A stretch of DNA of 64,000 nucleotides from Desmodesmus armatus (Eukaryota; Chlorophyta; Chlorophyceae; Sphaeropleales; Scenedesmaceae), in assembly GCA_007449985.2 (NCBI GenBank), contig VIIQ02000266.1, positions 23,002-87,001 of the forward strand. The letters run 5' to 3'. Below are positions 2,231 through 64,000 of the stretch, piece after piece. The translations under genes were made by a program, and so were the position numbers. The notes below the pieces were generated by a model. The model worked only from the letters and a program-made list of their open reading frames with translations, did not search any database and was not told the DNA's origin. Positions within the stretch are counted from its first letter, which is position 1, and each line of letters starts with the position of its first letter.

Positions 2231-4758
2231 TCAAGCCCTTGGCACGGCCCTGTCTTTGAGCAGCTGGTACACACTGCAGACGACATAGTACAGCACCAGA
2301 GCTGCAAAATCAACAACACAGTACAGTACAGGGCAGGGCAGGATCACCGGGAGACCAAGACACCCAGTGTGAGCCCAGGGCCGTTACCATGAATGCTGTA
2401 ACGTGTGGCTTCCTACAGATAAAGTGGCCATTGAAAAACATAGTGACATGCAACCTAGGCAAGAACCGAAAGAATGCGCAGCACGCCCAACACAGGTACC
2501 AGGTGTCTGCCCAAGCAATCACCAGCAACCAGCACCCCACTGCCGTCACCCCCCCCCCCTCTCTCGTCGTCATCTATCCACCCGTTCATTGACACACACG
2601 CGATATCACACCACTCCCCCCCCCCCATTCCAACCCCTCTCGGACCGCTTCACCCCCCCCCCCCCCCCCGCCCCCCCTCTTACCATTGTCAATCCACCCA
2701 ACCAGTGGAATAATGTCTGAAATGATGTCCAGCGGTGATAGGATGTTCAGCATGCCCAGCACTCAGTATGATGTACAGCATGCTCAGCAGTTGTCGACAC
2801 AGTGAGGTAAGGTGCTTGCCCTCCCCACTAGCACCGCCAGCACCCCCACCACCACCACTCTCCCCCCTTCCCCTCACACCCCCCCCCCCCCCCCCCCCCC
2901 CCCCCCCCCCACCCCACCCCTCACCGTCATCGATCCAACCAACCAAAGGTATGAAATCTGGGATGATGTCCAGTGGTGACAGGATGTACAGCATCCCCAG
3001 CAGCGGCGTCAGATACACCCACATAGAAGTGCGCATATGGGCTATGTTGGCCTTGTGGCTGGCTAGAGACCCTGGCAGGGCCAGCACAGGGTGCTGCTGA
3101 CCATTGCTGCCAGCATTGCTGCCGGCGGCTGCGGCGGCTGGGATGGCAGCAGTGACCTGACTCAGCATCTGGCCAAGGCTTCCTACTGGGGGCTCACTGC
3201 CGACACCTGGAAAGGAGGGTGCAGAGGAAGGGGTAGTGGGCAGCAGAATGTGGCGGGCAGCAGAATGTGGCGAGAGCAGAGCAGTAGGGTGATGCAGCAT
3301 GAGGACGGGGCAAAGCAAGGAGGTACGGTTATGGCACGACTGCAAAGGCAGATGCAGATGAAGGATTAGCGGGCAGCAGAATGTGGCAGGAGCAGAGCAG
3401 CAGGTGTGGTGGTGAGAAAGCACACCAGGAGGGCAGGACAGGGCACGACAGGGAGGTGCTACACACGGCAGATGCAAACGAGGATAGGCAATGCAGTCAT
3501 CTGCTGACACTGCAGTAGTGTGCTTGCGCCACAGCAGTGCCACAGCCTGTAAATCTCCTTTAAGGACTCGCGTGTCCTATGCACCCGTTGGCCACCGAAG
3601 CAGTTGCCCTGGTCAGCCCCCAGGCTTGCTAATCTGCCCTCTAGCATTGCCAAGCAAGTTTCTGTCTCCAAACAAAGTAGTATTTCTGTACTGATGGTCT
3701 AAACCCCACAACCATGCCTCAGGACGTACCCCGTACCTATGTTGCGGAAGACCCCAGCGGACCCAAAGGCATGATATGACACACAATGAGTGCAAACGAG
3801 GATGGCCAATAATCAGCCAAGTAGTGTGCCTGCTGCTCAGGTGTCACATGTGACAGGCTGTACAAGCTGTACGTTTCCCCAAAGACTCGCCTTTGCAAAC
3901 CTGGCCACCGATGCAGTTGCCCTGGCAGCCCCCAAGCTCGCTGAGCTGTGCTTGAGCAATATTCTGTCTCCAAATAATACAATTTGTAATGTAACGTTTT
4001 TTTGTAGTGATGGGCACATTCCCAGTAGCATTGGTCGGGATACCTCTCCTACCTGTGTTGCGGAAGACCCCAGCGGGCCCAAAGGCTGGGGTGGGCTGGT
4101 GCCGCTGCTGCTGCTGGGGCTGCCGCTGCTGTTGGGTGCTGCCTGCAAGCAGCGACAGTGACTTGAGAAAATGAGCCTTGCCGAGTCGTGTGATCCAAGG
4201 CCTGCTTGGTGTGTCACGGTGCACCCTGTCCGGCCATAAGCTGGTTGTGGCTGGCAGCCCATGGGACAGATGCCTATCATGGGGAACAGAAATGCCAGAG
4301 TGGAACTGAAACAGCGAATCCAGGCGCATGCGTCTGATGCTATTGAAATGAGCAAGCTAATGATCTGCTCAATGGTATATCCATGCAGCAGTACTTGCCG
4401 CAACCAGTTAGACAGTAACTGCTGCTGCAGGGCATCAAACCGCGACAGTCTGACTAGTTTTAGCAACATCACAACTAGAGGGTGTGGGGGAGAGAAGGTG
4501 GTCTTGCACACCTGCTGCTGCACCTGTTCCGCCAGCCCGGGGGTCATCCATAGCATCCAGCAGACGCAGCAGTGCTATGTTTGCATGGGGGTTAGAAGCG
4601 CGGGCTCTGCACTCGGGACAGTTCCGGAAGGACCTGGGCGAGGTCTTTATGCACTGCTCACAAAAGCTGTGGCCACAGCCCAGGTCGAAGGGCCGCTGGG
4701 TTGTGCTGTTGTACGTGTTCAGGCAGACACTGCACTGCAGCACGTCCGTGTCCACCAT
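2231..4758 (-). CDS. RING-finger / DUF1232 protein, RNF170-like E3 ubiquitin ligase
   Basis: The protein probably transfers ubiquitin to membrane-associated substrates; RNF170 relatives sit in the ER membrane. The start is the ATG at 4758, just before the RING: CSVC, then CGHSFCEQC, then CPEC, a complete C3HC4 pattern within residues 9-50. The C-terminal part is a DUF1232 domain: exon 3206-2925 carries LLGMLYILSPLDIIPDFIP and VGWIDD, and the last exon 2301-2231 carries ALVLYYVVCSVYQLL and ends PRA-stop. The phase joins WIDD to ALVLYY exactly. The middle exons are less certain. A long mixed-composition frame (LSNWLRQVLLHGYTIEQI) follows the RING but is one base out of frame at a C5 run near 4540. 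Two intragenic tandem duplications lie in the introns. It is divergent from the ARGLU1-like gene. The RING and DUF1232 assignment is firm; the complete exon chain is not. Confidence 0.75.
2684..2800 (-). repeat. Second copy of the DUF1232 exon
   Basis: On the minus strand this encodes LGMLNILSPLDIISDIIPLV followed by GWIDNG and a GT donor (2683-2682), clearly paralogous to the exon ending at 2925. The two are separated by long C/G homopolymers (2880-2911, 2653-2671 on the plus strand). The copy keeps the same reading phase at its donor, so it could serve as an alternative exon; it could equally be a decaying duplicate. Confidence 0.8.
3471..4095 (-). repeat. Tandem duplication of about 310 bp inside the RNF170-like gene
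   Basis: Two diverged units (about 3471-3780 and 3793-4095) share blocks such as GCAAACGAGGAT, CCACCGAAGCAGTTGCCCTG versus CCACCGATGCAGTTGCCCTG, and GTTGCGGAAGACCCCAGCGG. The shared block near each unit's right end encodes AGVFRN on the minus strand next to splice-like borders. Confidence 0.75.
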
Positions 4759-5107
4759 CACTGACACAAGCTGAAGGGTTCAAATAGATGGGCAACTGTT
4801 GGGAGTGAGGAAGCCTGGGGCACTTGGCCGGGTGTGGGGACAGCCACGCTTTGTCAGCAGCAGAACAGTGCACAGTCACCTGGTGACGATGGCTGAGATG
4901 CAAGAGCGAGTGAGGGTAACGGCAAGCAGTAAGCCCGTCTGGTTTTCAAGTGTCGACAAATCTGCGACACACGCATGGGCAAGGGAACGCCGACAGTTAT
5001 CAACGGTGATCACACGCAACCCCACCAGTGTGCCGTCCAACACCCGCACTCTGGCCTTACATGCAGATTACACATCAAGAGTGCTGTGCTGGACCATCAC
5101 TGGATTC
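4759..5107. promoter_or_regulatory. Divergent intergenic region with 5' leaders
   Basis: About 350 bp separate the RNF170-like start (minus) from the chosen start of the ARGLU1-like gene (plus), so both promoters should lie here. No TATA box or other named element is evident. The plus-strand frame stays open upstream to ATGs at 4890 and 4896, so the ARGLU1-like protein could start earlier than annotated. Confidence 0.35.
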
Positions 5108-63700: not shown

Positions 63701-64000
63701 GAGGTTCTCAGCTGTTTTGCATGCTGCATCCTGGACAGTCGTGACCAACCCGGGGGGGGGGGGGGGACTGTATCTGATAGCTTTCAGCAGCGGTTGGCAG
63801 CGTTTTGAGTTGAAGTGGATGAAGCAATACTGCACATGCTGGAGAGGAGGGTGCAAGCAGCACTTGAACACCAAGAGTGGGTTTGGGTTTGAAGGCGTAG
63901 GGTGTTGGATTTTCCCGCTCGGAGGCCGGTGTGCATGTTGCATCCTGACAGTTTAGTGAGCGCTTGAAGGGGGCAGGCCCGGGAGGGGGGGGGGGGGGGG
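60720..64000 (+). CDS. Unidentified protein with possible transit peptide, open to the right edge
   Basis: The function is unknown. Exons with GT-AG borders, all in phase 0, are 60720-61073, 62264-62500 and 63475-63657; the gene probably continues beyond the window. The first 45 residues, MLANTCKGAVNGCHKWSSAP onwards, are Ser/Thr/Lys/Arg-rich and acid-poor, compatible with a plastid transit peptide. Then come His/Gln runs, RRSRLVAHAAAKNEP and the acidic helix QQIDALLQELDPELLM. Exon 2 is Ala/Gln-rich and ends GGLPEGVVL. Exon 3 is a charged helix (TKAEYRRKAAILVELLAASR, then DEAILHMLERRVQAAVE). ATG 60720 is the first in this frame after the promoter gap. Six extra copies of the LLQELDPELLM exon end lie in intron 1. 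Confidence 0.55.
61074..61945 (+). repeat. Sixfold copies of the QQIDALLQELDPELLM exon edge
   Basis: Copies end at 61218, 61371, 61534, 61683 and 61825, with a degenerate one near 61937, after the first at 61073. Each has a CAG tract, the 16-residue segment, and a GT donor followed by GGTGTGATGAGTGAC and a G-run. Unit length is 142-163 bp. An acceptor inside the CAG tract falls on a codon border, so each copy could be a frame-neutral exon. Confidence 0.85.
62480..62965 (+). repeat. Copies of the GGLPEGVVL exon end
   Basis: After the complete exon end at 62500, the segment GGGGACTGCCAGAGGGGTGG recurs with a donor near 62769-62797 and in degenerate form near 62940-62965, separated by G-runs. 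Confidence 0.75.
63403..63447 (+). repeat. CTG tract and C-run before an acceptor
   Basis: About 15 CTG units and a C-run precede the acceptor at 63474, repeating the arrangement seen in the glycosyltransferase gene. Confidence 0.85.
63760..63880 (+). repeat. Decayed copy of exon 3
   Basis: SFQQRLAAF, then VEVDEAILHMLERRVQAA recurs about 216 bp after the complete exon. An in-frame TGA splits it and the donor is shifted, so it is non-functional as a whole exon. Confidence 0.8.

Follow-up and report, generated by a model that had tools for sequence, protein, structure and literature searches.

Introns of the green alga Desmodesmus armatus contain direct tandem duplications with units of mostly 120-390 bp and, where one end of a unit lies inside an exon, the exon edge has been copied together with its splice site. 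These arrays are described here for a stretch of 64,000 nucleotides (assembly GCA_007449985.2, contig VIIQ02000266.1, positions 23,002 to 87,001), hereafter called the window, which forms the last 64 kb of the 87-kb contig C262 in a genome of 115.8 Mb and 831 contigs, and in particular for a P450 gene on its minus strand. The analysis separates a feature that is given by geometry, the outward placement of the edge copies, from one that is unexpected, the divergence of these intronic copies in the manner of coding sequence. Gene labels (P450, DUF1232, EGF, actin, TCP1/Cpn60) derive from Pfam or tblastn matches, and positions are those of the window. The P450 gene was mapped by tblastn with a homologue, P0001, 56% identical to it; its best P450 relatives are 56-61% identical, among the 8000 candidates with the most words in common, the only ones scored.

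Exon-Edge Copies in the P450 Gene

From the self-BLAST of the window and the tblastn search, with the nine complete P450 exons (e1 to e9) taken in, 32 partial copies were gathered, 14 of exon starts and 18 of exon ends. All the exon-start copies lie upstream of their complete exon (14/14) and all the exon-end copies downstream (18/18); the AG is retained in 14/14 of the former and the GT in 15/18 of the latter by script (16 by eye). An AG at the left end of the exon-end copies, as a hidden acceptor, showed no consistent pattern by eye. The tblastn search with the homologue shows 27 of the 32 copies, the missed ones being three start copies of e1, one start copy of e4 and the end copy of e2. 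A search with the nine exons at the DNA level alone recovered 31 of them, all except the e9 end copy (40027-40085); it found no complete copy of any of the nine exons with both splice sites. With E values of at most 0.05 it also returned 12 further matches, and a control with reversed sequence gave one match; among these 12 are internal fragments of e6 and e7 and three short inverted matches to the e1 start (58580-58993), unlike the other copies, none of which obeys the outward rule. Of the 178 repeat pairs that self-BLAST yields over the whole window, 9 are inverted and 169 direct, and each of the direct pairs is separated by less than 5 kb.

A reading of this DNA made from its letters alone (the sequence-only reading) had proposed that all six spliced genes of the window carry such copies, more than 50 in number, always outward of the complete exon and with the adjacent splice site. 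The self-comparison shows the repeats to be real, and the inclusion of the splice site is borne out in the P450 gene. The same arrangement is visible in the printed sequence of gene A (DUF1232), gene B, an EGF-domain gene and gene F, but the claim does not extend to the sixth gene or to every edge, and the outward order, strict among the P450 edge copies, is broken by the inverted e1 and internal e6 and e7 matches. The figure of more than 50 is plausible: 44 window copies were aligned, in 18 families, and the full count was not reached. In two large arrays, one at 34.7-39.8 kb and the other at 48.0-55.7 kb, tblastn detects no P450 exon sequence above chance.

Occurrence Elsewhere in the Genome

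Outside the window, edge copies are present at P450 loci on contigs C145 (7 copies) and C567 (3) and at an actin-related locus on C66 (5). By self-BLAST they are also found at three of six TCP1/Cpn60 loci (C30, C601 and C625) and at the actin-related locus of C226, with none at the TCP1/Cpn60 loci of C47, C2 and C571 nor at the actin locus of C564. At the C601 locus (L037:4280-4790) there are three young exon-end copies, whose exon part is 95-98% identical. Rows of hidden Markov model (HMM) matches are repeated in 7/42 multi-row gene clusters (P450 4/29, actin 2/3, TCP1 1/10), and HMMs alone overlook the short copies in C30 and C601 that self-BLAST shows. Since the copies at C66 and C567, and in the window those of the EGF-domain gene, gene B, the exon at 12.7 kb and gene F, were found by patterns that already required a splice site or edge, they are not counted as evidence that the splice site is retained.

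Direct repeats cover 0.04-0.65 of the six 10-kb segments of the window. In 20 outside segments of this length, chosen arbitrarily from ten large contigs (small contigs like C262 not being in the random sample), the cover is 0-0.23; its median is near 0.01, and it is zero in 9/20. Moreover, 20-base words of G or C number 165 in the 64-kb window and 22,756 in the 115.8 Mb, a 13-fold higher density in the window than genome-wide. From the copies at the P450, actin-related and TCP1/Cpn60 loci, together with the segment survey, it follows that the duplication process occurs at many genome sites and that the density of the window is exceptional among the sampled segments. The pattern is therefore, as had been supposed, present on other contigs and a property of more than one gene family, but not at the density seen in the window. 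Two loci were searched as DNA against the genome: the EGF-exon array matched its own locus only, and a TCP1/Cpn60 locus matched itself and two short pieces elsewhere (65 and 30 bases). A repeat of another kind was observed at L024:270-3947, where two direct repeats of 716 bases, 99.9% identical, stand 2962 bases apart; the pair looks like a young long terminal repeat element.

Structure of the Arrays

The spacers between copies are homologous (z of at least 5) in 47/63 pairs, the homology spanning fewer than 20 bases in 6 of the 47, and therefore the unit usually consists of the exon edge plus intron. The copies stand head to tail as direct repeats with homologous spacers, as in a tandem array, and their exon part aligns to an intron of the same gene on the same strand, as in intragenic partial exon duplication. 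By local alignment, identity is 0.87 in the exon parts and 0.88 in the spacers, the exon part being the more alike in 17/47 pairs, and gaps per 100 bases are 1.3 in the exon parts against 5.3 in the spacers. The proposal that exon parts are much better kept than intron flanks has been largely withdrawn, the fixed 75-base flanks having been confounded by unit geometry. At the TCP1/Cpn60 and actin-related loci, with 12 copies, the exon part differs at 21/617 bases and the adjoining intron at 72/425.

On C145, one exon has seven graded copies. Upstream of position -72 from the donor, this P450 exon agrees with copy 2217 at 17/19 informative sites, and from -72 into the intron it agrees with copy 1502 at 25/25 sites, a mosaic which fits an unequal exchange inside the exon part.

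Coding-Like Divergence of the Copies

Over 59 copies in 21 families, the differences between copies and complete exons comprise 302 synonymous and 156 nonsynonymous changes, 6 bases at the break having been cut off each copy and the complete exon serving as reference for gene F. The changes at the three codon positions number 104, 67 and 287, and the third position is the commonest (ties counted) in 20/21 families. The window by itself gives 184 synonymous and 75 nonsynonymous changes, the data without the window P450 gene 181 and 95, and the 12 copies of the TCP1/Cpn60 and actin-related loci 13 and 8; many nonsynonymous changes are found in the most distant copies of C66 and C145. The commonest of the three positions has a share of 0.65 in the exon parts (from 15 families having at least 9 differences), whereas the non-exonic array units have no 3-base period, with a mean share of 0.41 (12/13 pairs with 9 or more differences). 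In other words, the non-exonic units diverge without a coding pattern, as units of a plain tandem array would, and the exon parts do not.

Four sources of this pattern were considered and set aside. That the synonymous excess stems from ascertainment at the protein level is rejected because the DNA-only search finds 31/32 of the P450 copies. Base-composition bias is rejected as well: 44/86 copy-private changes are synonymous, against 27% expected when matched for type of change. Gene conversion within the array is unsupported as a cause by the simulations run. As to a paralogue as the source of the copies, the closest P450 apart from the window gene lies on C613 and, exon by exon, shares 39-68% identity with the query protein. 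If the coding-like divergence is true, exon fragments in introns have a function or diverged alleles are shuttled by exchange between array and exon, and in either case the annotation and dating of such fragments would change.

Geometry, Targeting and Break Points

A duplication with one end in the exon and the other in the intron always yields start copies upstream and end copies downstream. The outward rule is thus the geometry of any tandem duplication across an exon edge and is uninformative on mechanism, contrary to the sequence-only reading, which had taken it as a clue. Exon edges, another element of that reading, are not detectably targeted by the duplications. With the expectation taken from shifts of the repeat map along the gene, 11/19 P450 exon edges lie within local repeats against 13.3 expected (p 0.85), in a test whose power is limited because 72% of the P450 region is repeat; for eight other loci the figure is 7/128 against 6.3 (p 0.44). 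Whole-exon copies are absent from the P450 gene, where 3.2 of 13 first events would be expected from the unit lengths (p 0.02; first offsets entered by hand from coordinates).

The suggested local duplication process that lengthens introns is supported, and its proposed link to G/C homopolymers stands for about one third of the breaks. Just past the break of the P450 copies a C-run of 6 or more is present in 5/14 exon-start copies against 2.8% of intron positions, and a G-run of 6 or more in 5/18 exon-end copies against 8.4%, with the opposite type of run in none of the 32 copies; the copies of one array are not independent observations in these counts. Repeat cover and run density give a Spearman coefficient of 0.14 (p 0.55) over the 20 outside segments and of 0.56 (p 0.003) when the six window segments are included.

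Origin of the Arrays

The arrays are probably the product of repeated short tandem duplication in homopolymer-rich introns, with purging of whole-exon copies and unequal exchange between copies and exon. The duplications would arise through slippage or misalignment during repair, frequently at runs of G or C. A copy of a whole exon would be spliced in and therefore purged by selection, whereas an edge copy with a single splice site would be tolerated; and exon edges lying side by side would allow unequal homologous exchange between copy and exon, by which the array would be enlarged and reshuffled. This reading is preferred because the repeats are direct and local, the spacers homologous, the exon edges hit at chance level and some arrays purely intronic, and also because of the lack of whole-exon copies, the G/C runs at breaks and the C145 mosaic. 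The coding-like divergence would then reflect exchange with other, diverged functional alleles and not the decay of dead copies, an explanation that may be offered only very tentatively. So understood, these genes provide a concrete system for intron growth by tandem duplication with whole-exon copies weeded out.

Several observations weigh against this account. As far as it includes dead copies, it is opposed by the ratio of nonsynonymous to synonymous rates (dN/dS) of copies against exons, which is 0.168 (family bootstrap 0.10-0.23); a dead copy compared with a conserved exon should give a value near 0.5, and simulated dead copies gave 0.60-0.97 (19 settings with varied rates of within-array exchange and one selection strength). 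Some families do look dead, with a dN/dS of 0.92 for the e4 end copy and 0.53 for the e1 end copies. Stops make up 1/156 of the nonsynonymous changes against an expected 4.6% (about 7). The 46 nonsynonymous changes of the P450 copies are conservative (p 0.001) and affect residues of lower conservation (0.36 against an expected 0.48, p 0.002, in a test confined to positions with at least 5 homologues and omitting the e4 end copy and the codons past the e4 deletion). As regards exchange, the C145 mosaic is compatible with either direction, and the clustering of differences is significant in only 7/42 pairs, 3 of which are C145 siblings. A G/C run of at least 6 is missing at about two thirds of the breaks. 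Furthermore, diverged alleles would need a synonymous diversity that we estimate at roughly 0.1-0.25, and a second haplotype is absent from the assembly for the one TCP1/Cpn60 locus searched.

Among the alternatives, the one that survives best, unlikely as it is, holds that some transcripts include the edge copies as alternative exon edges or terminal exons, where they are translated and kept by coding constraint. The dN/dS of 0.17, the third position being commonest in 20/21 families, the avoidance of stops, the conservative changes and the contrast between exon (21/617) and intron (72/425) at the TCP1/Cpn60 and actin-related loci would all be accounted for; yet each edge copy has one splice site only, such use would be demanded in several unrelated genes, and some copies, like the e4 end copy with its 0.92, look dead. 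Moreover, the spacings are in most cases not divisible by three (those of the e9 start copies are 226, 238, 237 and 239 bases, of which only 237 is), so that read-through would usually break the frame.

It is quite unlikely that the copies are dead products of simple replication slippage at G/C homopolymers without later exchange, as the sequence-only reading had proposed: the runs at about one third of the breaks and the 13-fold density of G/C words in the window speak for it, but the coding-like divergence, the two thirds of breaks lacking a run and the missing correlation of cover and run density in the outside segments, present only when the window segments are added, speak against it. Very unlikely, in turn, is the view that the edge copies are silent cassettes which swap segments with the working exon over many generations and are kept coding-competent by selection; if it were true, the introns of this alga would serve as a permanent store of alternative exon edges, swappable into the gene. 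Least of all can an assembly artefact be believed, in which pieces of diverged haplotypes or strains were joined head to tail and the copies are alleles: it would explain the coding-like divergence and the two complete P450 exons that are one base shorter than their own copies, and false duplications from diverged haplotypes are documented (PMC9516828), but the seven graded copies of one C145 exon, the homologous spacers, the pure intron arrays and the failure of a genome search with one TCP1/Cpn60 locus to show a second haplotype are hard to reconcile with it.

Features of the Window

The P450 gene (33813-58466, minus strand) has ten exons by homology in tblastn with P0001, of which nine complete ones were analysed, with copies at one or both edges; the last exon matches the Pfam P450 model slightly below the cut-off. 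All the following P450 coordinates refer to the minus strand. Exon e1 (57758-57858) has start copies at 58390-58466, 58265-58334 and 58009-58079 and end copies at 57604-57669, 57344-57419, 57125-57194 and 56896-56956. Start copies of e2 (47292-47391) are located at 47752-47812 and 47523-47576, and its end copy at 47050-47117, while e3 (46610-46759) has end copies at 46425-46497 and 46114-46224. Exon e4 (45302-45411) is preceded by start copies at 45798-45857, 45645-45723 and 45512-45578 and followed by a poor end copy at 44998-45085, of which the DNA search shows 45013-45035 only. A single end copy (44578-44666) belongs to e5 (44821-44924), and two start copies (44340-44394 and 44186-44273) to e6 (43917-44043). 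The end copies of e7 (43556-43704), at 43296-43397 and 43056-43156, each start at a G-run; those of e8 (42669-42806) lie at 42421-42515 and 42298-42394. Finally, e9 (40910-41071) has start copies at 41910-42016, 41682-41807, 41472-41569 and 41236-41335 and end copies at 40702-40795, 40530-40622, 40340-40411, 40158-40246 and 40027-40085. The complete e9 is one base shorter than all five of its own end copies and the complete e4 one base shorter than its own start copies; the assembled P450 gene is therefore frameshifted twice, either through sequencing error or as a recent pseudogene. The intronic tandem arrays between e1 and e2 occupy 48038-55730 (no strand assigned), with units of about 180-390 bp, and a second long intronic array with units of the same size is located at 34684-39816.

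On the plus strand, gene B has exon-start copies at 8375, 8661 and 8890 and the complete exon from 9010 (feature 8375-9206), and another exon start (12759-12991) has a copy at 12759 and the complete exon at 12917. In the EGF-domain gene, which from its motifs we take to be exostosin-like, an exon start (13947-14343, plus strand) has copies at 13947 and 14094 before the complete exon from 14247, and a second exon (19343-20264, plus strand), complete from 19590, has a start copy at 19343-19459 and end copies at about 19888-20264; many GCA/CTG triplet runs are found in and around the coding sequence of this gene at 11865-15814. Gene F (60960-61825, plus strand) has its complete exon end at 61073 and end copies extending to 61218, 61371, 61534, 61683 and 61825. 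Gene A (2580-3030, minus strand), DUF1232 by Pfam and presumably RNF170-like by its motifs, has a complete exon end within 2830-3030 and an end copy within 2580-2790. Elsewhere in the window, a 386-bp element, perhaps a mobile element, is present in two tandem copies (94%) at 30044-30817, with an inverted 111-base piece at 23086-23196, about 7 kb off. In the mitochondrial cox1 gene, 92% identical to that of Tetradesmus obliquus, TAG is read as leucine, as in Scenedesmus; this would place the alga within or close to the Scenedesmaceae, and an origin from Haematococcus was set aside on these grounds.

Comparison with Known Systems

No report of tandem exon-edge arrays of this kind was found in the open literature, most subscription journals being outside the search. 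Intronic minisatellites, which expand and undergo unequal exchange, are alike in their direct head-to-tail units of 100-400 bp, but the units described here contain exon edges and splice sites. Introns are reportedly gained by tandem genomic duplication of exon segments bearing AGGT (PMC4974935, PMC3443670); there too, tandem duplication across coding sequence makes extra splice sites, whereas here no new intron is seen within coding sequence, and it is the existing sites that become more numerous as the intron lengthens. Mutually exclusive or tandem full-exon duplication differs in that the nine P450 exons have 0 complete copies. Introner-type mobile introns are alike at many unrelated loci; the two loci searched here matched their own place and, for one of them, the pieces of 65 and 30 bases. 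For silent-cassette gene conversion, the present data offer one clear mosaic, the P450 exon of C145, in which either direction is possible.

Among published cases, helq-1 mutant nematodes acquire tandem duplications of about 100 bp to 10 kb with junction microhomology (PMC8654963); these are likewise direct duplications, but a mutant signature. Loss of HELQ/POLQ was considered for D. armatus and set aside as not shown, one HELQ/POLQ-type domain match over the cut-off being present in this genome. The nuclear repeats of Haematococcus lacustris, also a green alga, are short and tandem with complex patterns, and exon edges are unmentioned in the available portion of that report (PMC7617258). Also close are the partial and intronic exon duplications that the accessible text on Exonize describes in many genomes, so that the kind of duplication is already known: there, as here, exon parts are duplicated into introns of the same gene. 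By comparison with that text, the D. armatus arrays are distinguished by several copies per edge, mostly of the edge plus its splice site, by their tandem order, by their occurrence at many exons of one gene and by a divergence like that of coding sequence.

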